Below, piece by piece: positions 30 to 9,029 of a stretch of 10,678 nucleotides of DNA. This DNA comes from Alphaproteobacteria bacterium. GTDB lineage: Bacteria; Pseudomonadota; Alphaproteobacteria; RS24. Every line of letters starts with the position of its first letter. Within the stretch, counting starts at the first letter, position 1. The DNA lies in NCBI GenBank assembly GCA_028816945.1, contig JAPPQG010000008.1, positions 1 to 10,678 on the forward strand, written 5' to 3'. A program made the translations under genes and the position numbers. Below the pieces are notes generated by a model. The model ran no database searches. It worked only from the letters and a program-made list of their open reading frames with translations, and was not told the origin of the DNA.

Positions 30-1409
30 ATGCACGACCATAATAAACATGATAAATTAGTGGCACAGATTGATGCGCTTATTGCACGCTATCAAACAAT
101 GCTAAATTTGAATGCTTTTACGCATTTTGACGCCGCCTATTTGCAGGCAGAAGCAGCCAAATTAGCGGCTCTTTCCGATGCAGAAAAAGCGGCCCTTCCC
201 CTTTATGGGATTCCTTTTGTTGTTAAAGATAATATAGACACAAAGTCTATGCCAAGCTCAGCTGGCACGCCCGCCCTCAAAGGCAAAACGCCCGCCCAAA
301 ATGCCCCCGCCATTGATAGGCTCTTGGAAAAAGGCGCGCTTTTAGCAGGCAAAACCAATATGCATGAATTAGCCTTTGGCATTACATCAAATAATGCCGC
401 GTTCGGGCCTGTGCGCAACCCCTATCAGTTGGATAAAATAGCCGGCGGCAGTACTGGTGGCACAGCGGCGGCCATTGCCGCGGGGCTTACTGAGATTGGA
501 CTTGGCACAGATACGGGCGGCTCAATTCGTATTCCAGCTGCGCTGTGTGGCATTATCGGCTTTCGGCCTACAATGGGCCGTTATGATAATCGAGGCGTGT
601 TACCGCTCTCCCATACGCGCGATACAATCGGCCTTATGGCAAAACAAATTGAACTGCTTGCCCGCTTTGATGAAGTGTTAGCGGGCGCGCAAGAGGCGGA
701 TGAAGCAGAGGTAAAAAGTCCCGACAAACTTCGTTTAGGTGTGCCGCAAGCTTATTTTCACGATATTTTGGACGAACAGGTCGCTGCCTGTTTCGAACAA
801 GTTAAAGCCCGCCTTGCGGACGCGCAAATTACATTAGTTGCGGCCGAGCTTGACAATGTCGCCCAGCTCAATGAAGCGGTTAGTTTTCCTATTGTGCTTT
901 ATGAAGTGATGCAGGATTTACCCGCTTATTTGGCCGCCCGCGGACAGGCTGATTTAGATGGATTGATTGCACAAATTGCAAGCCCTGATGTAAAAGCCAT
1001 TCTACAATCGCTTATGGGCGAAGGATCTATGCCACAAGCCGCCTATCAAGCCGCTATCGAGCAACACCGCCCCGCTTTGCAAGAAACTTACCGCGCTTAT
1101 TTTGACACGCATGAGCTAGATGCTATGTTGGTTATGACAACGCCTTTACCTGCTTGCGCGATTGGCGAAGATGAAACCGTCTCTTTGTGTGGCGAACAAG
1201 TGCCGACATTTAATAGTTTTATTCGCAATACAGACCCAACCAGTAATGCGGGCTATCCCGCCTTGACACTACCCGCGGGCTTATCGGCACAAGGCCTGCC
1301 GATAGGCGTCGAATTAGTTGCGCCCGCCCATAAGGATAGGCAATTACTGCAAATAGGGGCAGGCCTGATAAATATTTTAGGAACAATTCCGCCGCCTCCC
1401 ACCTCCTAG
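30..1409 (+). CDS. iaaH: Amidase-signature hydrolase, probable indole-3-acetamide hydrolase
   Basis: Predicted cytoplasmic amidase that would hydrolyse an aryl acetamide to the acid plus ammonia, the second step of the indole-3-acetamide route to auxin. The 459-residue protein has the full Ser-cisSer-Lys triad of the amidase-signature family: Lys66 in VVKDN, Ser141 in GGSTGG (GGSSGG is more usual) and Ser165 in DTGGSIRIPA. The stretch around residues 176-201, GFRPTMGRY followed by SHTRDTIG, is typical of the IaaH/mandelamide hydrolase branch rather than of GatA. Length matches known IaaH proteins (about 450-470). AGGGG at 21-25 lies 4 bases before the ATG. It converges on the iaaM-like gene, with the two stops 54 bases apart. 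The pairing with an amino-acid 2-monooxygenase is the main reason for the specific call; family is certain, substrate (indole- versus phenylacetamide) is inferred. Its promoter lies mostly left of the window. Confidence 0.82.
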   Translation: MHDHNKHDKLVAQIDALIARYQTMLNLNAFTHFDAAYLQAEAAKLAALSDAEKAALPLYGIPFVVKDNIDTKSMPSSAGTPALKGKTPAQNAPAIDRLLEKGALLAGKTNMHELAFGITSNNAAFGPVRNPYQLDKIAGGSTGGTAAAIAAGLTEIGLGTDTGGSIRIPAALCGIIGFRPTMGRYDNRGVLPLSHTRDTIGLMAKQIELLARFDEVLAGAQEADEAEVKSPDKLRLGVPQAYFHDILDEQVAACFEQVKARLADAQITLVAAELDNVAQLNEAVSFPIVLYEVMQDLPAYLAARGQADLDGLIAQIASPDVKAILQSLMGEGSMPQAAYQAAIEQHRPALQETYRAYFDTHELDAMLVMTTPLPACAIGEDETVSLCGEQVPTFNSFIRNTDPTSNAGYPALTLPAGLSAQGLPIGVELVAPAHKDRQLLQIGAGLINILGTIPPPPTS

Positions 1410-1425: not shown

Positions 1426-1465
1426 TTATAACTCGTTATAACTCGTTATAACGCGTTATTAACTC
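1426..1465. repeat. 10-bp tandem repeat between convergent genes
   Basis: Four head-to-tail units of consensus TTATAACTCG: two perfect copies (1426-1435, 1436-1445), one with a single change (TTATAACGCG, 1446-1455) and a degenerate fourth that runs into the stop codon of the - strand monooxygenase gene (1464-1466). It fills most of the short gap between the convergent iaaH and iaaM genes. No convincing hairpin plus T-run terminator is visible here. Confidence 0.8.
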
Positions 1466-3281
1466 ATTCGCCATTATCGGCTGTATAATTAAAGCGGGCA
1501 GGTGTGACTTTTGTCATGGGATTATTATCGGCACATGTTAATCGCCCCCCAGCACTTGTGATAATAGCGGCGGCCGCATTTAAGCCCGTTTGCAACGCCC
1601 CTTCAAGCCAACCCCCATTCCAAGAAGTGCAATCGCCAGCAATATAAACGCCACTATCCCTATTATGTTTTTTTTCTTTTGCTTTGGCAAAATCGCGAAA
1701 CATTTTATCTATAAAATAATCTTGCCCAGACCGCGCCAAAGCAAATGCGCCATAATAATGCTCCTGTGTGAGCCAATCTATTAACCTTGTATCGCGGGCC
1801 ATATCGCCCGTATAGGGTTCTATATGGTCGGCAAAGTCAGCAAAATCCGTATTGTGGGTGATTTTAGCAATTTCTGCTTTCACCAAATCCAAATATTTTT
1901 CCGCTGTATTAAAACTCGCCATTTTCAGCGAATCATCCTCCCAATTATATTGGCCTAAAACAACGCCACTTTCTGCCTCACCATAATCTAATGTGTATAA
2001 TTGCGGTAATTTTGTATCCGATAAAATTGTGCGGGGATATTTTTTATCTTGCCAAAATTTTTTGGTGCGAATGAAAAATTTATTTGCGGGAATAACATGT
2101 GTGCGATTGAGCGCTTCGGCTATATCGTGTTCGAGGGCGGCTTTTTGCTCTGGGTCGGGCAGGGTAAAATCGGTAAGTTCTAGCCCCAATTCCATAGCAC
2201 GGCTTGTCATGGCGACAATAACATAATCAAAATCCTGCCTCTCATCTGTGTCAAATTGAAGGGTAATTTTACCATTTTGCGTTGCTTGTGATTTGTCTGT
2301 GTTTTTACAACATTTAATATGTCTAATGATACGGGCTTGGAAATCCCCGCCCATTTTTTTGAAATTATTTATAAAATGGTCGAATAAAGTAGAAATGCCG
2401 GCGGGGATAAATAATTGATTATTTTCTAATTCATTTATCAATATGCGGTAAATATATAAAAAACTAACATCATAAAGCGGCGCAAACCCGCCTGAGCCAA
2501 TGCCTAATGTGCCAAATTTTGTAAAATCAAACTGATTCCATCTAACATTATGGCGTGTGCTATATGTTTTGCGCCCTTTGCCAAAAATTTTATACAGACC
2601 CGAATAAAAATTATCTGCTTCGAATAAATATAGATAAGTCTGCCATTGGCGCGTCACTTCATCTAATATGGTTTCATCTTGGGCTGAATGTTGCAATTTA
2701 GCCGATAGGCTTTGTGCTGAGGCAGCAATTTGCTTGCCGTTTAAGTCATAAATGCCATAAGTGAGAAAATCATGCATGCCCTTATAAACATTTTCAAAGC
2801 CAGCTGGCGGCGTGTTTATGTCCTGCCATATTTGCCCCTTGCCTTTATAAGAAATAAAACTTGGCACAATGCCCGGGTCAGGGAAAATATCATATGCGTA
2901 AATAGCGAATCGATTGAGATAATAAAATAATAATTCTTGGCTAGGCGGAAAACGCATCGCCCCCAATTCGGCAATATCTTTTGATATAGAGCCGTCAGCA
3001 TTTTTGAAAAAACTGCTATAACACCGCCCGCCATAATGGCCTTCTGGGGCAGAAAAAAGTGTCACCTGTGCGCCGCTTTTTTGTAATTCATAAGCCGCAC
3101 AACAGCCCGCCGCCCCCGCCCCAATCACTGCTACATTGGCCGCAAGGTCGCCAATTTTATCTTTTTTACGATGCGATTTTTGTAACCAATCAGCATATGA
3201 AAAGCCCGGCGTATCAATAAAAGCACGCCCGACAGGGCAAGCATTTTCAGAAAATCTTAAATTGGGCGCAAGTGTAAACAT
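1464..3281 (-). CDS. iaaM: FAD-dependent tryptophan 2-monooxygenase-like enzyme
   Basis: Predicted flavoprotein that oxidatively decarboxylates an aromatic L-amino acid to the acetamide (Trp to indole-3-acetamide), the first auxin-pathway step. In a 605-residue protein the FAD-binding IGAGAAG lies at 53-59, then ELGAMRFPPS (106-115, with the Arg that binds the substrate carboxylate in this family), FPDPG (133-137), LGIGSGGF (259-266), NKFFI with the conserved Lys401, WEDD (447-450), and the C-terminal FAD segment GGWLEGALQTGLN (556-568). These blocks occur in the same order in Pseudomonas savastanoi IaaM (557 residues). Phenylalanine 2-monooxygenase and general L-amino-acid oxidases are the main alternatives; the adjacent IaaH-type amidase favours a monooxygenase making an amide. 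Start: ATG at 3281 lacks a clear ribosome site; a TTG at 3320 (618 residues) has weak GGGA upstream but lies only 16 bases from an operator-like site. I prefer the ATG slightly. Confidence 0.8.
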   Translation of the reverse strand: MFTLAPNLRFSENACPVGRAFIDTPGFSYADWLQKSHRKKDKIGDLAANVAVIGAGAAGCCAAYELQKSGAQVTLFSAPEGHYGGRCYSSFFKNADGSISKDIAELGAMRFPPSQELLFYYLNRFAIYAYDIFPDPGIVPSFISYKGKGQIWQDINTPPAGFENVYKGMHDFLTYGIYDLNGKQIAASAQSLSAKLQHSAQDETILDEVTRQWQTYLYLFEADNFYSGLYKIFGKGRKTYSTRHNVRWNQFDFTKFGTLGIGSGGFAPLYDVSFLYIYRILINELENNQLFIPAGISTLFDHFINNFKKMGGDFQARIIRHIKCCKNTDKSQATQNGKITLQFDTDERQDFDYVIVAMTSRAMELGLELTDFTLPDPEQKAALEHDIAEALNRTHVIPANKFFIRTKKFWQDKKYPRTILSDTKLPQLYTLDYGEAESGVVLGQYNWEDDSLKMASFNTAEKYLDLVKAEIAKITHNTDFADFADHIEPYTGDMARDTRLIDWLTQEHYYGAFALARSGQDYFIDKMFRDFAKAKEKKHNRDSGVYIAGDCTSWNGGWLEGALQTGLNAAAAIITSAGGRLTCADNNPMTKVTPARFNYTADNGE

Positions 3282-3336
3282 TCTAATTTCATCAATCGAT
3301 TTGCCCCATATTTGCACCAATTTTATCCCACAGAAT

Positions 3337-3352
3337 TCAGGGAAAACCCTTA
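3337..3352 (-). promoter_or_regulatory. Operator-like inverted repeat upstream of iaaM
   Basis: Read on the - strand the sequence is TAAGGGTTTTCCCTGA: an AGGG/CCCT inverted repeat with a 4-base TTTT centre (core 3339-3350). The same 16 bases, with one change, occur at 4381-4396 upstream of the TonB-dependent receptor, also reading toward the gene. This repetition across two promoters flanking the LuxR-type gene makes it a candidate binding site for that regulator. A TATAAG at 3360-3355 (- strand) could be a -10 box, in which case the site would cover the transcription start. The assignment to a specific regulator is inference. Confidence 0.6.
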
Positions 3353-3409
3353 TTCTTATACTTTATTGTTTTTATTAAAACTTTATTTGCATATTATGTT
3401 ACAAAATAA

Positions 3410-3438
3410 TTGACCCAATATAAAAACAGCGATAATGT
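3410..3438 (+). promoter_or_regulatory. Sigma70-type promoter for the LuxR-type gene
   Basis: TTGACC (3410-3415) and TAATGT (3433-3438) are separated by exactly 17 bases, close to the sigma70 consensus. Transcription would start near 3445, giving a very short leader before the ATG at 3459, with GAAGG (3445-3449) and GTGAGA (3451-3456) as possible ribosome-binding sequence. The short leader is a mild weakness of the call. Confidence 0.5.
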
Positions 3439-3458
3439 AAGAGTGAAGGTGTGAGAAT

Positions 3459-4217
3459 ATGATTAATTCTACGCAGATAGAAAAAATCGCCTCTATCGGT
3501 TCTTTGGCTTGTGAAGCTTATGCCGATGATGATTTTGAGCGGCTTATTTTGCGCCAAATCCAAGCTTTGTTAGATACAGATGGTGGTGTTTTTTATAATA
3601 TAAGCGGCTTGCCCGCTGCGGTCACCTTTGGTGATAATTATTGTGTCGATATAGACCCTGAATATGCGAATTATTATAAAGAATATTATCACGAGCAAGA
3701 CCCGCTTTTGAATTATTTATTCAAACGCCCGCATAAATCTTTTTTTAGTTCAATTTCCACCCTGCATGCCATTGAAGATTTAGATGAATATCAAAATTCG
3801 GAATATTACAAAGATTTTCTACGCCCACAAAATATTCATACAAGCATTATTTTTACACTCGGCAATAATAATGGTTTAATGGGGCTGTTCGGTTTCCAAC
3901 GCCCTTTTAACAAAACACCCTATAATCGAGATAGTCATTTACTAGCACAATTACTTGCCCCTTATTTGATATTGGCTTTGGAAAGTCGGCAAATGCAACG
4001 CGCTAAAAGCCAAGTGCAATCAAATCTGTCTTTAACCAAACGGCAAATGGATATTGCAAAATATATTATAATGGGCTTACGCAATCATGAAATTGCCGCC
4101 CAATTAGGCATTAAGGTAAAAACAGTAGAATGCCATCTTACCAGCATTTACCAGCAAACCCATACACGCAATCGAGTTATGCTTGCCCGCGCTTTGGCGG
4201 ATATTTTACCTATGTGA
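3459..4217 (+). CDS. LuxR/GerE-family transcriptional regulator, LuxR solo
   Basis: A 252-residue DNA-binding regulator. Residues about 191-246 form a standard GerE/LuxR helix-turn-helix: LTKRQ at the start, NHEIAAQLGI (209-218), KTVECHLTSIY (221-231) and the NR pair at 238-239. The N-terminal 170 residues resemble an autoinducer-binding or GAF-like sensor fold; aligned by eye, Tyr72 and Asp81-Pro82 match the conserved Tyr and Asp-Pro of acyl-homoserine-lactone receptors, but both ligand-contacting Trp positions are replaced (Glu68/Tyr69 and Phe96). No phospho-receiver domain is present. No luxI-type synthase lies in the window. It is divergent from the iaaM-like gene and followed, same strand, by the receptor gene; matching operator-like sites lie upstream of both neighbours. 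Family is secure; an AHL ligand is doubtful, and a plant, algal or indolic signal is only a possibility. Confidence 0.85.
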   Translation: MINSTQIEKIASIGSLACEAYADDDFERLILRQIQALLDTDGGVFYNISGLPAAVTFGDNYCVDIDPEYANYYKEYYHEQDPLLNYLFKRPHKSFFSSISTLHAIEDLDEYQNSEYYKDFLRPQNIHTSIIFTLGNNNGLMGLFGFQRPFNKTPYNRDSHLLAQLLAPYLILALESRQMQRAKSQVQSNLSLTKRQMDIAKYIIMGLRNHEIAAQLGIKVKTVECHLTSIYQQTHTRNRVMLARALADILPM

Positions 4218-4325
4218 TAAGCTTATGTAATAGGCTTATGTAATAGGCTTATGTAACAGCACTATGTGATGTGTCTGTGTATCGCATTATGTAATAGCAT
4301 TATGTAATAGGGCTATATGTAATAG
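4208..4325. repeat. 13-bp tandem repeat downstream of the LuxR-type gene
   Basis: Consensus GCTTATGTAATAG. Copies: 4221-4233 and 4234-4246 (identical), 4247-4259 (one change), a degenerate CACTATGTGATG near 4260, then after a short interruption 4284-4297, 4298-4310 and 4311-4325 with small length changes. A related TATGTGATAAG at 4211-4221 includes the stop codon of the LuxR-type gene, so the array may have grown from the gene's 3' end. There are no unique spacers, so it is not CRISPR. Units contain TAA and TAG, and since 13 is not a multiple of 3 the array closes all + strand frames. Confidence 0.8.
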
Positions 4326-4380
4326 ATCTATATAAAAATTAACTATCAATATAATGTTTTTGTAAATATTTTTTAATAAT

Positions 4381-4396
4381 TAAGGGTTTCCCCTGA
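4381..4396 (+). promoter_or_regulatory. Operator-like inverted repeat upstream of the receptor gene
   Basis: TAAGGGTTTCCCCTGA, an AGGG/CCCT inverted repeat with a 4-base centre (core 4383-4394). It matches the site upstream of iaaM (3337-3352, - strand) at 15 of 16 positions. It lies about 145 bases before the receptor start codon, in the gap between the LuxR-type gene and the receptor. If it is an activator site, a -10 such as TAGCTT (4415-4420) would be suitably placed, but no convincing promoter is visible next to it. Confidence 0.6.
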
Positions 4397-4449
4397 TATA
4401 TTCCACCTGCTGATTAGCTTAAACCTCCTCTAACCTGCCTTAATAGTGA

Positions 4450-4518
4450 CGGCAAATAGTCTGCTAGATGATTTGTCTGTCTAAATTAAAGAGGCAATAA
4501 TTTGCCGCCCAATGGCGG
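4450..4518 (+). promoter_or_regulatory. Receptor-gene leader: inverted repeats and candidate promoter
   Basis: CGGCAAAT (4450-4457) and ATTTGCCG (4500-4507) form a perfect 8-bp inverted repeat with 42 bases between. A second hairpin, CCGCC-CAAT-GGCGG (4505-4518), overlaps the right arm, so the two pairings exclude each other. Between the first arms lies a possible promoter, TTGTCT (4473-4478), 17 bases, AATAAT (4496-4501). If that promoter is used, the inverted repeat is a DNA operator flanking it; if transcription starts further upstream, the two hairpins could switch in the RNA just before the ribosome site. I cannot tell which. Confidence 0.35.
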
Positions 4519-4528
4519 ATAGATAATT

Positions 4529-4533
4529 GGAGG
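4529..4533 (+). promoter_or_regulatory. Ribosome-binding site fixing the receptor start
   Basis: GGAGG lies 8 bases before the ATG at 4542. A longer reading from the TTG at 4527 would overlap this site, so the ATG is the start. Confidence 0.85.
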
Positions 4534-4541
4534 TTACTGCA

Positions 4542-6992
4542 ATGGCTTATGCTAAAATGAGAATGAATGTAAAAGAGCGTAACTTAAATAACAAGAAAGA
4601 GTCTTATATCCAGTCTGTAAAGACTTGTTTGGCTTTTACACTTTTTGCTTTTGTGTTCCAGCAATGTGTGAGTATGCAAATTGTGCAGGCGCAAACGGAG
4701 CCGTCTGATGAGGCTGTTATTGATGCCATTGTTGTGACAGCAACAAAGCGCGCCGAATCAATTCAATCTGTTGGTTTGAGTATTTCAGCCATTTCAGGCG
4801 AGGATTTGCAAGCGCGCGGGGCAGTGGATTTTGAAGATTATGCTTTGACTGTGCCAAATCTTGCTTTTGGCGCAACCGATGATGGTATTTTAGCCAATCG
4901 CACAATTTCTATTCGCGGGATTGAAGGGTTAAATACAACTGGTTTTTATATTGATGATGTGCCGATTGACGAATCAATCGACCCGCTTGTGCTAGATGTT
5001 GAGCGTGTTGAGGTTTTGCGCGGGCCGCAAGGCACGCTTTATGGAGCGCGTGGTCTTGGCGGGACTGTGCGGATTGTTACAAAACAACCAGAATTCGATG
5101 AAGTTTCAGGCCGCGTGCATTTTGGCCTCTCCAATACAGATGAAGGCGGGCTAAATTATGTTGTTGATGGGGCTGTCAATATCCCCCTATCGGAAAAATT
5201 CGCTATTCGTTTTACGGGCTATCAAAAATATGATGAAGGGATTTTTGATAAAATTGTCGGGCCGGCCTTAACGGCCCCGGGTGTATCGGGCATGGTTGGC
5301 GCGCCGGGCGCGATTAGTGGTGATAATGGGCCTTTATTTTTTGAAAATGTCGATGATAAAACGACCTTTGGCGCGCAGCTAGCTATGCGGTTAGAGGCAA
5401 GCGATAATTTAGAAGTGCTTGTTAAATTCCTTATGCAGAGGACAAAACTTGACGGCTTCCCATTAGCAGATTTTACCTATGATGCGGATAATCCGCCTAG
5501 ACAAATTGTTCTAAAAGCTGATGATTTCACACAAGAGCGGCTTTTCAACATTGCCGAAACAGGTGAAGATGAATGGTTCCAAACCAGTCTCACCCTCAAT
5601 TATGAAACGGACATTGGCAGGTTTAGTTCTTCAACGGGCTATTTTAGGCGCAAAACAGAAGAAGGCGAAGATTCAAGTGCATTTGTCTCCTTTACTTTGC
5701 CTGAGCGAACATTAGACCCTCAGCGAACAATAGGCCTTACACGCACAGCCGCGTCAGCGCCCATTTACCAACGGCTCAATTTTACAACCTTCGTCGAAGA
5801 ATTGCGCTTTGTCTCTAATTTTGAAAGTCCATTCCAAGTCACAACAGGGCTTTTCTATCAAGACACAGGCGATGATGAGGATTTCTATCCCCCTAATTAT
5901 GCACGCGGGGCGGGCGTTTTCCTCTCACAATTTATCGAAGCAGCATTTAATTTCCCTGCCGGTTCAGTACCCCCTAATGATTTAATATTTACCTCATTTC
6001 GGCCATCTGATGTCGAAGAATTAGGGGCTTATGCTGAAGTTTCTTATGATATTACCGACCAATTCACGGCTACACTTGGCGCGCGTTATTATGATACAGA
6101 AACCTCATTTAACGATACACGTGATGGATTTGCCAATGGTGGGCCGTCGACAACAGGTGTGCGCACACAGGCTGAAGATGGGGTTAATCTAAAAGCCCTG
6201 CTTGAATATCAAGCAAATGAAGATTTATATTTTTATACTTCAGCGGCGCAAGGGTTCAGAATTGGTGGCGCAAGTGGCGGTCTGCCTGCCGCCTTAGATT
6301 GCCCTGCGCAAGCCGCCCGCTTGGGCTTTTCAGTTGATGATGCGGGGTCTTATGATTCAGATGATTTATGGAGTTATGAATTAGGAGCAAAAAGCACATG
6401 GGCCGATGGCCGCGTTGTTTTGAATGGCGCTATTTTCCGTGTTGATTTTGACGATATTCAGCAAGTTATTTTACTCCGATGCGGTTTTCCTTTCACAACC
6501 AATGCGGGTGAAGCGCAAAGTGAAGGCTTTGAGATTGAAGCAAGTTTCTTGCTGACCGATAATTTATTCATTCAATTAGCGGCTGGTTATACGGATGCTG
6601 AATTTACCGAAGATGTTGCACAGCTTTTCAAAAGCGGTGATAAATTACAGCAAATACCAGAATGGACCTATTCATTTACTGCTGATTATGAATTTGATGT
6701 ATCAGCAAATTATAATGGTTTTGCAAGGGCTGATTTTTCTTATGTTGATGAAAGCATTAGCCGTGTTGTTGATCTAGAAAATCCCCGCATGCGCCCAGCT
6801 TATGAAATTCTTAATCTGCGTGCTGGTGTTCGAAGTTCAGATTATGAATTTTATGCTTTTATAGATAATGCATTGGATGAAGATGCTGTTTTTGCCGATA
6901 ATAGAACATTAGCGGCCGAAGCCACAGGCCGTCCCCGTGTTGTGCGCAATCGACCCCGCACAATCGGTGTCGGGTTAAGAGGTCATTTCTAG
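4542..6992 (+). CDS. TonB-dependent outer-membrane receptor, ligand unknown
   Basis: An 816-residue energy-dependent outer-membrane transporter. A long basic N-terminus precedes a hydrophobic segment (about 28-44) and a likely signal-peptidase site after VQA at 48-50. The TonB box is DAIVVTATKR (61-70). The plug domain includes TISIRG (121-126), FYIDDVPID (135-143) and the hallmark VERVEVLRGPQGTLYG (153-168) followed by GGTVRIVTKQP (173-183). The rest is a 22-strand-type barrel rich in aromatic/Asp/Asn turns that ends in GVGLRGHF with a C-terminal Phe, as outer-membrane proteins usually do. Length is normal for the family. The domain order resembles the large aquatic-proteobacterial receptor group, which includes many non-siderophore transporters, so the substrate cannot be read from sequence. 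An alpha/beta hydrolase follows 111 bases later, and an operator-like site upstream links it to iaaM; uptake of an amino-acid, indolic or conjugate precursor is speculation. Confidence 0.93.
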   Translation: MAYAKMRMNVKERNLNNKKESYIQSVKTCLAFTLFAFVFQQCVSMQIVQAQTEPSDEAVIDAIVVTATKRAESIQSVGLSISAISGEDLQARGAVDFEDYALTVPNLAFGATDDGILANRTISIRGIEGLNTTGFYIDDVPIDESIDPLVLDVERVEVLRGPQGTLYGARGLGGTVRIVTKQPEFDEVSGRVHFGLSNTDEGGLNYVVDGAVNIPLSEKFAIRFTGYQKYDEGIFDKIVGPALTAPGVSGMVGAPGAISGDNGPLFFENVDDKTTFGAQLAMRLEASDNLEVLVKFLMQRTKLDGFPLADFTYDADNPPRQIVLKADDFTQERLFNIAETGEDEWFQTSLTLNYETDIGRFSSSTGYFRRKTEEGEDSSAFVSFTLPERTLDPQRTIGLTRTAASAPIYQRLNFTTFVEELRFVSNFESPFQVTTGLFYQDTGDDEDFYPPNYARGAGVFLSQFIEAAFNFPAGSVPPNDLIFTSFRPSDVEELGAYAEVSYDITDQFTATLGARYYDTETSFNDTRDGFANGGPSTTGVRTQAEDGVNLKALLEYQANEDLYFYTSAAQGFRIGGASGGLPAALDCPAQAARLGFSVDDAGSYDSDDLWSYELGAKSTWADGRVVLNGAIFRVDFDDIQQVILLRCGFPFTTNAGEAQSEGFEIEASFLLTDNLFIQLAAGYTDAEFTEDVAQLFKSGDKLQQIPEWTYSFTADYEFDVSANYNGFARADFSYVDESISRVVDLENPRMRPAYEILNLRAGVRSSDYEFYAFIDNALDEDAVFADNRTLAAEATGRPRVVRNRPRTIGVGLRGHF

Positions 6993-7103: not shown

Positions 7104-7919
7104 ATGGAAAATGCACAGATTTTAGATATTGGGGATGGGGTCGCCCTTTCAGTTATTGATTGTGGTGCGGGTGAGCCGATTGTTTTTATTAGCGGATTTG
7201 CATTTTCGAGTGATGTTTTTGAACATCAAATTGCCCCATTGGCACAAAAAAATCGTGTTCTTTTGGTTGAGCCGCGCAGTCATGGCCGCTCGCCGCATAT
7301 TTTAGAAGGCAATAATTATCCCCAACATGGCCGTGATTTAGACAGGCTTTTTACAAAATTAGAGCTGCAAAATATAAATCTTGTAGGTTGGTCATTCGGT
7401 GCGCTTTCTGCTTGGAGCTATGTCGCTTGTGCGGGATTGGATAGGGTGAAAAAATTTATTTGTATTGACTGCCCGCCCAAAATTTTATCAATAGGCGAAG
7501 CACAGGGCGATTGGGTGGAAGCCCCATTAGATGAAATTGCCACTCTTTATCACCAATTACTTGATTTTGAGAATTACAAATCCTTTATCAGCAATTATAC
7601 ACAAGAAATTATGCTCCAACGCGAATTGCAACCCCAAGAAGCGGCGCATTTTTTAGCTGCCCCCTTGCAAACCCCCCTACCCATTGTGAGAGATTTATTT
7701 GTCTCAGGCGTATTTAGCAATTATTTAGAGCTTGCTAAAAAAATAGATAAAGAGCGGGCGAACCTCTTTTTTATTGCCGAACATTGGTCTGAGATTGCCG
7801 TGCCTTATCTTAAAAAACATCTACCCAAAGCGCAAATTGAAGTTTTTGGCAACCATATGATGTTTTGGGAATATCCCGAGCGGTTTAATAAAATTATGCA
7901 AACATTTCTAACTGCATAA
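7104..7919 (+). CDS. Alpha/beta-fold hydrolase, substrate unknown
   Basis: A 271-residue single-domain alpha/beta hydrolase, normal length for the esterase/haloperoxidase-like group. Visible elements in order: an oxyanion-hole region FISGFAFSS (28-36), EPRSHGRS (56-63), the nucleophile elbow GWSFGA (95-100) with Ser97, a cap region (about 130-205), and the catalytic His251 in GNHMMFWEYPERF. The acidic member is less clear: at the usual place after strand 7 the sequence is FFIAEHWSE, so Glu226 would replace the common Asp; Asp122 (IDCPPK) after strand 6 is another candidate. No signal peptide, so cytoplasmic. Start ATG at 7104 has only a weak GGA upstream. It lies 111 bases after the receptor, same direction, without an obvious terminator between, and may be co-transcribed; hydrolysing an imported ester or amide would fit, but this is inference. 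Confidence 0.85.
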   Translation: MENAQILDIGDGVALSVIDCGAGEPIVFISGFAFSSDVFEHQIAPLAQKNRVLLVEPRSHGRSPHILEGNNYPQHGRDLDRLFTKLELQNINLVGWSFGALSAWSYVACAGLDRVKKFICIDCPPKILSIGEAQGDWVEAPLDEIATLYHQLLDFENYKSFISNYTQEIMLQRELQPQEAAHFLAAPLQTPLPIVRDLFVSGVFSNYLELAKKIDKERANLFFIAEHWSEIAVPYLKKHLPKAQIEVFGNHMMFWEYPERFNKIMQTFLTA

Positions 7920-8109: not shown

Positions 8110-8146
8110 AAGGACATATAAATAGGGCATATAGAATAGGGCATAT
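8110..8146. repeat. 14-bp short tandem repeat in the sdhC leader
   Basis: AATAGGGCATAT occurs at 8121-8132 and 8135-8146 (period 14), preceded by a degenerate copy AAGGACATATA (8110-8120). It sits between the predicted transcription start and the sdhC ribosome site, so copy-number changes could alter the leader. Confidence 0.6.
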
Positions 8147-8157
8147 GGGGATATATC

Positions 8158-8586
8158 ATGGCACATGACCGACAAGCAAAGCAGACAGCGCATATAATGG
8201 ACGCATCCCAGCGCCCGCTTTCCCCGCATATCCAAATTTACCGTTGGACTTTAACAATGGCTTTGTCAATTTTGCACCGTGCAACGGGTTTAGCCCTTTA
8301 TGCTGGCACGCTTTTATTTGTTGCTTGGCTGGTGGCCGTCGCTTTGGGGGAAACACATTATGTGCGCGCCCAAATGCTTGCGCATAGTTGGTATGGTGTT
8401 GTCATTTTATTGCTCTATGTGTGGGCTTTATTTCATCATATGTGTGGGGGCATTCGCCATTTTATTTGGGATATGGGCTATGGATTTAAGCTACGCCATG
8501 TAGAATGGCTGGCATGGTTTTCTGTCTTTATGCCGTTCGTGCTGACGGCATGTGTTTGCTATTTGGCAATGATGCGTGGGTCTTAA
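8158..8586 (+). CDS. sdhC: Succinate dehydrogenase cytochrome b556 subunit
   Basis: Membrane-anchor subunit of complex II that helps bind heme b and passes electrons from succinate to ubiquinone. The 142-residue protein carries RPLSPHIQIYRW (19-30), the quinone-site SILHR (37-41, Ser37 and Arg41 matching E. coli Ser27 and Arg31) and HHMCGGIRHFIWD (93-105), with His94 in the position of the axial heme ligand. Three hydrophobic helices lie at about 44-63, 76-97 and 115-137. GGGG at 8147-8150 precedes the ATG by 7 bases; an internal ATG (residue 14, MDASQRPLSP) would give a length nearer the usual 125-130 residues and cannot be excluded. First gene of the sdhC-sdhD-sdhA operon, 2 bases from sdhD. 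Confidence 0.95.
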   Translation: MAHDRQAKQTAHIMDASQRPLSPHIQIYRWTLTMALSILHRATGLALYAGTLLFVAWLVAVALGETHYVRAQMLAHSWYGVVILLLYVWALFHHMCGGIRHFIWDMGYGFKLRHVEWLAWFSVFMPFVLTACVCYLAMMRGS

Positions 8587-8588
8587 CG

Positions 8589-8960
8589 ATGATAGATAAT
8601 CATAAAAAACAAAAGCCACAAAAACCTATCGGGCAAGCAAGCCGTCATTTTATCTGGCAAAGGGTGACAGGGCTTGCCAATATCCCGCTTGTCGTTTTTT
8701 TCATTGCCTCTTTATTGATACATAGAGGGGCTGACCATGCGACCATTATTGCCTATTTTGGCCACCCGCTAATTGCCCTTATAATGCTTGTTTTCATTCT
8801 GTCTGCCCTATGGCATATGCGTTTGGGGATGGAAAATGTTATTGATGATTATATCCATCATAAAGCCTTCCATAAATTTGCCTATTTATTAAATCTTATT
8901 TTTACCCTATTTGTTGCTGTGGTCTGTATTTTAGCACTTGTGAAACTCACTTTAACCTAA
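8589..8960 (+). CDS. sdhD: Succinate dehydrogenase hydrophobic anchor subunit
   Basis: Second membrane anchor of complex II, 123 residues with three hydrophobic helices (about 28-44, 57-77 and 97-119). HFIWQRVTG (20-28) opens the first helix, and LWHMRLGMENVIDDYIHH (74-91) contains His76, aligned with the heme-ligating His71 of E. coli SdhD, and Asp87-Tyr88, aligned with the quinone-site Asp82-Tyr83. The frame is open upstream to 8505, but that extension overlaps sdhC and lacks family similarity; the ATG at 8589, two bases after the sdhC stop, gives the normal family length. The ribosome site (GTGGG) is weak and lies within the end of sdhC, suggesting translational coupling. Confidence 0.93.
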   Translation: MIDNHKKQKPQKPIGQASRHFIWQRVTGLANIPLVVFFIASLLIHRGADHATIIAYFGHPLIALIMLVFILSALWHMRLGMENVIDDYIHHKAFHKFAYLLNLIFTLFVAVVCILALVKLTLT

Positions 8961-9010
8961 TTGCCTTTATTATATTTCCTTTATCTATATTACCTTTATC
9001 ATATTGCTTT
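8961..9010. repeat. Degenerate 15-bp tandem repeat between sdhD and sdhA
   Basis: Units TTGCCTTTATTATAT (8961-8975), TTCCTTTATCTATAT (8976-8990), TACCTTTATCATAT (8991-9004) and a partial TGCTTTTAT. The array starts directly after the sdhD stop codon and fills most of the 69-base gap before sdhA. The units are imperfect, so the array is not recent. Confidence 0.65.
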
Positions 9011-9029
9011 TATAAGAGAGATAATCCCC

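Follow-up and report, generated by a model that had tools for sequence, protein, structure and literature searches.

A 16-bp inverted repeat on both sides of a LuxR-type gene as candidate shared operator of iaaM and a TonB-dependent receptor gene in an alphaproteobacterium

The locus and the two 16-bp elements

Near-identical 16-bp inverted repeats lie on either side of a LuxR-type gene in an alphaproteobacterial contig, one upstream of an auxin-synthesis gene and the other upstream of an outer-membrane receptor gene, which raises the question of whether they are operators of one regulator, and of which. The window, by which we mean the whole stretch analysed (10,678 nucleotides), comprises positions 1-10678 of contig C222 (JAPPQG010000008.1, 12899 bases), the contig beginning at window base 1. 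A preliminary description had read the pair as the mark of a regulon, with two or more transcripts, under the neighbouring LuxR-type protein. The features are as follows.

30..1409, + strand: iaaH, indoleacetamide hydrolase (NF005688 above cut-off), convergent with iaaM
1464..3281, - strand: iaaM-like tryptophan 2-monooxygenase gene, 605 aa, start ATG 3281
3352 to 3337, - strand: site 1, TAAGGGTTTTCCCTGA, 6-N4-6 imperfect dyad in the divergent iaaM/luxR gap
3459..4217, + strand: luxR-type regulator gene, 252 aa, C-terminal GerE DNA-binding domain
4381-4396, + strand: site 2, TAAGGGTTTCCCCTGA, 6-N4-6 imperfect dyad in the gap between luxR and the receptor gene
4542..6992, + strand: TonB-dependent receptor gene (plug and beta-barrel), start ATG 4542
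7104..7919, + strand: alpha/beta hydrolase gene, 111 bp downstream of the receptor gene
8158-8586, after the hydrolase gene: Sdh_cyt (succinate dehydrogenase membrane subunit) gene

The iaaH product scores 560 bits against NF005688, an NCBIfam equivalog with a cut-off of 532, and just 29 bases of DNA lie upstream of its gene at the contig edge. The mechanical iaaM reading frame begins at TTG 3320; we take ATG 3281 as the start because the alignment with the nearest relative found (40% identity) begins at the first residue from that codon. The closest solved structure is tryptophan 2-monooxygenase 4iv9 (E 1.8e-87, residues 58-603 of the frame from TTG 3320), and this full-length similarity, together with the nearby iaaH, identifies the predicted product as an IaaM. 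The best plasmid relatives of the receptor are found in Novosphingobium and Sphingobium at about 30% identity, and the hydrolase gene is possibly co-transcribed with that of the receptor.

We find that TAAGGGTTTYCCCTGA matches at 3337-3352 (-) and 4381-4396 (+), that the two elements agree at 15 of 16 positions, and that they flank the LuxR-type gene, one in each gap (3282-3458 and 4218-4541), all as first described. These two are the window's matches to TAAGGGTTTYCCCTGA at up to three mismatches, where 0.14 are expected and 3 of 200 shuffles reach two. They are also its sole perfect copies of AGGG-N4-CCCT, again as first described, with four occurrences against 2.36 expected when one mismatch is allowed. 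Each element has complementary bases in five of its six outer pairs and a break in the second (A2-G15), and the half-sites read TAAGGG and TCAGGG. It is true that each element points toward its gene; however, this orientation is weak evidence, because A2-G15 alone gives the arms a direction. Site 1 is upstream of both its neighbours, with 63.5 bp from its centre to the likely iaaM ATG and 114.5 bp to the luxR ATG; the centre of site 2 lies 153.5 bp upstream of the receptor ATG (4542). Beyond the elements, no likeness between the flanking sequences is apparent by eye, and the two gaps hold no TNAGGG half-sites besides the elements' own arms.

Two further features of the gaps were observed. Short tandem arrays with units of 10-15 bp occupy four intergenic gaps (1426-1465, 4211-4325, 8111-8146 and 8960-9013), that at 4211-4325 having a 13-bp unit in 8.8 copies and beginning within the final luxR codons. 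Of 12 further stretches of the genome that were scanned, most contain arrays of this kind, many in gaps abutting gene ends and some in reading frames; the arrays are perhaps a genome-wide habit. In the leader of the receptor gene (4430-4541), the stretch 4430-4560 folds better than its shuffles (z -3.1, 1 of 200 equal), and a CCGCC/GGCGG hairpin stands ahead of the likely ribosome-binding site.

Chance and rarity in the genome

The preliminary description held that chance was unlikely to produce such a match in the two promoter regions. As stand-alone evidence the 15/16 identity was dropped, since the window contains seven pairs of 16-mers at up to one mismatch, compared to a shuffled mean of 4.2 (maximum 10, 30 shuffles), and such identity is by itself ordinary. 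The joint placement is what upholds the claim: upon confining the comparison to the gaps 3282-3458 and 4218-4541, any pair at up to one mismatch arises in 22 of 4000 dinucleotide shuffles, and one that also forms a dyad with at least five of six pairs in 2 of 4000. This test is after the fact, the gaps having been picked once the sites were known, and is still the relevant one.

In the source assembly (1.33 Mb, 238 contigs, 69% complete), the full 16-bp element is found at 18 places at up to three mismatches, two of them at zero (sites 1 and 2) and 16 at exactly three, while the reversed control yields 11; no third copy within two mismatches is present in this 69%-complete assembly. A looser dyad, T[AC]AGGG-N4-CCCT[GT]A at up to one mismatch, occurs at 10 places against one in the control. 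Besides sites 1 and 2, these comprise five in mechanical reading frames (one of them, in C180, unsure owing to masked bases), two overlapping in a convergent gap of C176 and one in a gap of C167. The preliminary description had asked whether the element is scattered, including inside genes: the full element is not, at up to two mismatches, but the looser dyad partly is, with the five in reading frames. The dyad class is thus not confined to the iaaM/luxR/receptor locus, whereas the full element is, within the assembled 69%. Among the genomes of the family, several of the 28 being incomplete, the motif at up to one mismatch is absent from the 27 others and present in this one.

Two of the outlying dyads were considered as regulon members and rejected. 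The perfect dyad in C176, the third in the genome, sits between convergent gene ends and overlaps a second dyad. The dyad in C167 lies upstream of the gene of a thiamine-diphosphate enzyme whose best family is NF006122, a "hypothetical protein" subfamily of acetolactate-synthase type; we do not link it to the regulon because it has one mismatch to the dyad and three to the full element, adjoins a hairpin and precedes an enzyme of uninformative family.

The regulator, its relatives and its neighbours

The window regulator matches PF00196 (GerE) with 50.4 bits against a cut-off of 23.5, which assigns it to the GerE/LuxR type. On its N-terminal part no Pfam family is found even at E values up to 10, three weak extra hits lying in the DNA-binding part, and the autoinducer-binding family PF03472 is likewise without a hit at E up to 10, so that Pfam does not identify the protein as a LuxR solo of the acyl-homoserine-lactone (AHL) type. 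Among its relatives, two (L047 and L048) have sub-threshold GAF hits, and a third (L045) has a GAF hit above cut-off and a sub-threshold hit to the autoinducer domain. A profile of 10 sequences of the regulator group aligns over part of RhlR, and this group may have a distant fold relation to the AHL-type domain.

The regulator is found in one of 28 genomes of its order and one of 97 relatives (E 1e-10), both times its own, and in the rest of the class draw its top matches have about 25% identity. A single-sequence scan of genome contigs matched 18 stretches, none of which was confirmed, and a plasmid search gave no match. With a three-sequence profile, 2 of 385 genomes of the class were matched, its own and G227; within the family of G227, one of five genomes was matched, G227 itself. 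The other genes of the locus are similarly sparse: iaaM is matched in 4 of 116 relatives at E 1e-20, this genome being the sole member of its family among them, the hydrolase in one of 28 family genomes (its own, E 1e-10), and the receptor, at a strict cut-off, in one of 289 genomes of the class, again its own. The gene group looks accessory and was probably acquired.

Next, we searched 84,980 species genomes for iaaM and examined the best 80 loci, detecting LuxR-type genes with a home-made GerE profile (E <= 1e-4, reading frames of at least 100 aa). Fourteen GerE reading frames were found in 12 of these loci. In at least three of the best 80, in Burkholderia (L083), Paraburkholderia phenazinium (L090) and Kistimonas (L106), the GerE gene is immediately divergent from iaaM; three is a lower bound, some loci having little upstream DNA, and the Burkholderia and Paraburkholderia loci, being closely related, represent a single event. 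By the profile, the remaining 77 of the best 80 have no such divergent gene. In a Flavobacterium locus (L105) the GerE frame is directly upstream of iaaM on the same strand, and the other ten frames lie farther from iaaM, eight of them in actinobacteria. A LuxR gene is also divergent from iaaM in Caballeronia SBC2, with agreeing hit coordinates in SBC1. These Burkholderia, Paraburkholderia, Caballeronia and Kistimonas pairs resemble the window in that a GerE regulator of similar length is immediately divergent from iaaM, but differ in regulator tree group and gap sequence. Within the class draw, neither the nearest iaaM outside the source genome (G286) nor two iaaM genes in G042 adjoin a LuxR-type gene recognised by eye.

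Two side observations concern these pairs. Three betaproteobacterial gaps (L083, L090 and Caballeronia L067) keep TGCCGTTAA or GCCGTTAA and a TACACGG stretch. Relatives of the Caballeronia regulator were viewed in three further records of the 13 hit: in Thioclava the relative has an amidase gene beside it, in Acidovorax it lies about 2.5 kb from iaaH, and in Rhizobium rhizogenes K84 its neighbour is an arginase gene.

In a tree of 14 regulators, the window protein groups with two proteins of G227 (96/94), whereas the four iaaM-adjacent LuxRs fall into a separate group of eight rows (99/98) that excludes it; the tree carries a long-branch warning, and the window protein is a long branch. In G227, which is of the same class, one regulator (L048) is divergent from a Pfam-confirmed receptor gene, and the other has a receptor-like frame (by eye) about 2.4 kb off. 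We also viewed nine plasmid regions with regulator relatives (H44, H45, H74, H84, H88, H89, H92, H93 and H94), seven of which come from the 50 records of one search. The regulator adjoins an annotated TonB receptor in four of the nine; a fifth has a gene of like length and order annotated as hypothetical, and four have none. In Sphingobium sp. TomTYG65 and TomTYG72, Novosphingobium sp. P6W and S. herbicidovorans MH, the GerE regulator adjoins the receptor gene on the same strand as in the window, with the regulator first in the two TomTYG strains, like the window, and the receptor first in the other two. These regulators are longer than that of the window (about 360-390 aa; that of TomTYG65 is 21.5% identical to the G227 LuxR query), and their loci, unlike the window, have no iaaM among the annotated neighbours and no matching motif. 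The window joins both recurrent pairings, LuxR with receptor and LuxR with iaaM, and its LuxR-iaaM pairing may have arisen independently. Elsewhere in the class, at four loci (L045, L046, L049 and L050) representing four genomes of two families, a LuxR-type gene is convergent with a frame resembling FAD-dependent oxidoreductases by eye, with an overlap of a few bases.

Operator type and competing readings

The canonical 20-bp lux box has half-sites of the ACCTGT/ACAGGT type, and the half-sites of the elements, by reading, are not of this kind. A closer likeness is offered by ComA of Bacillus subtilis, a response regulator, although the window protein, unlike ComA, has no receiver domain in Pfam. 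According to the excerpt of PMC4797271 available to us, ComA is a GerE-domain protein whose dimer controls genes by binding upstream inverted TTGCGG hexamers, with an optimal spacer of 4 nt. Both sites have this architecture of inverted hexamers around a 4-nt spacer, with five of six outer pairs; the hexamers themselves differ, and no additional direct-repeat unit, such as most promoters under ComA possess, is seen in the two gaps.

Partial precedents exist for each target. LesR of Lysobacter enzymogenes is a LuxR solo affecting TonB-receptor levels, an effect known from proteomics and not from an operator; in the excerpt of PMC4886534 that describes it, LuxR solos are defined by a classical AHL-binding domain, which is not recognised in the window protein. 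In Paraburkholderia phymatum the same auxin pathway is under transcriptional control, NifA repressing iaaMH; NifA belongs to another regulator class than the window protein, and the text of PMC9554594, as far as it was available, does not mention LuxR. PMC13273656, in its available part, concerns an IclR-type regulator and has no bearing on the operator question.

In 16 gaps examined next to distant pairs of LuxR with iaaM or with a TonB receptor, neither an exact AGGG-N4-CCCT nor the full element at up to three mismatches was present; two of the gaps, both in contig C319 of G227, have the dyad with one mismatch, which by our estimate is about the chance level. Because the gaps of these distant analogues show no match beyond chance, conservation among them appears neither to support nor to exclude control by the LuxR-type protein. 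Sigma-70-like promoter matches number 9 in the scan, against 6.1 +/- 2.8 expected, and give no common promoter spacing for the two sites. One of them (4373-4402) has site 2 between its -35 and -10, a position in keeping with a repressor, and by eye a TAAAAT 11 bp downstream of site 1 would place that element over the -35. With promoter matches at chance level, we do not choose between activation and repression.

From these comparisons, the elements are probably operators of the protein whose gene lies between them, a GerE-domain protein of the LuxR/NarL/ComA type. That they form a shared operator at all, as first proposed, is supported by their rarity in the assembly, their joint placement in the gaps flanking the regulator gene and the 6-N4-6 geometry that they share with the ComA box. 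Control by the neighbouring protein is plausible and is the simplest and best reading: the sites flank the sole recognised regulator gene of the window, the assembled 1.33 Mb contain no further site at up to two mismatches, and site and regulator are absent together from the 27 other family genomes. The shuffled gaps, the spacing of the ComA hexamers (PMC4797271, in excerpt), the LuxR genes divergent from iaaM in at least three of the best 80 loci and in Caballeronia SBC2, and the related regulators adjoining TonB receptors (L048, sphingomonad plasmids) all argue in the same direction. Against it stand the tree, in which the iaaM-adjacent LuxRs exclude the window's long-branch protein, the analogue gaps without the exact dyad, the 77 of the best 80 iaaM loci without a divergent LuxR, the missing common promoter spacing, and the looser dyads, half of them in reading frames.

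Three other explanations account for part of these observations. The elements could be the shared operator of another regulator encoded elsewhere, perhaps in the roughly 31% of the genome that is missing, with luxR between them by chance. The distant LuxR relatives without the motif would fit this, as would the sigma-70-like match around site 2, a place commonly taken by repressors of other families; yet a regulator encoded at a distance should have its motif at further loci as well, none of which appears within two mismatches in the assembly, and a regulator gene stands exactly between the two sites, so that we consider this explanation unlikely. It is quite unlikely that two similar GC-rich dyads arose in AT-rich gaps by chance and without joint function. 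The ordinary frequency of 15/16 pairs, the ten looser dyads with five in reading frames and the choice of gaps after the fact speak for such a coincidence, whereas the 2 of 4000 gap shuffles that match both closeness and symmetry, and the lack of a further full copy at up to two mismatches in the assembly, speak against it.

That the elements act as RNA hairpins, as attenuators or terminators rather than DNA operators, is very improbable, and this reading was rejected. The C176 dyad pair between convergent gene ends does look terminator-like by eye, yet it folds only slightly above shuffles (z -1.3). Sites 1 and 2 fold about as their shuffles do (z -1.2 and -0.3, with 23 and 74 of 200 equal or better), neither is followed by a T run or listed by the terminator scan, and a terminator would make little sense at site 1, between divergent genes.

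If the elements are operators of the LuxR-type protein, the target of a dimer would be TAAGGG-N4-CCCTGA, two hexamers in inverted orientation. Site 1 would control iaaM and probably luxR itself, and site 2 the TonB receptor and perhaps the hydrolase behind it; the N-terminal domain, not recognised by Pfam as one of the acyl-homoserine-lactone type, would receive the signal. Since site 1 also lies upstream of luxR, autoregulation is possible, and the "at least two transcripts" first proposed are better given as two or three, site 1 lying in the divergent iaaM/luxR gap.

The architecture is that of an ordinary bacterial switch, and its target pair, auxin synthesis and an outer-membrane receptor, is unusual. 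A search of part of the literature by title and abstract found no report of a LuxR-type regulator of iaaM. A more far-reaching picture, which we regard as unlikely and in which host and compound are guesses, is that of a local host-dialogue circuit in a small-genome bacterium: a LuxR-type sensor with no recognised AHL domain would tie iaaM to the TonB receptor through one 16-bp operator. A compound from an alga or plant would be taken up by the receptor and processed with the help of the hydrolase, and auxin output would be set by the same signal. As a lead, the divergent LuxR-iaaM pair that recurs among beta- and gammaproteobacteria may reach wider than the motif. Binding of the regulator to both sites would provide a defined operator for the indole-3-acetamide pathway of auxin synthesis, tying that synthesis to uptake through one receptor.
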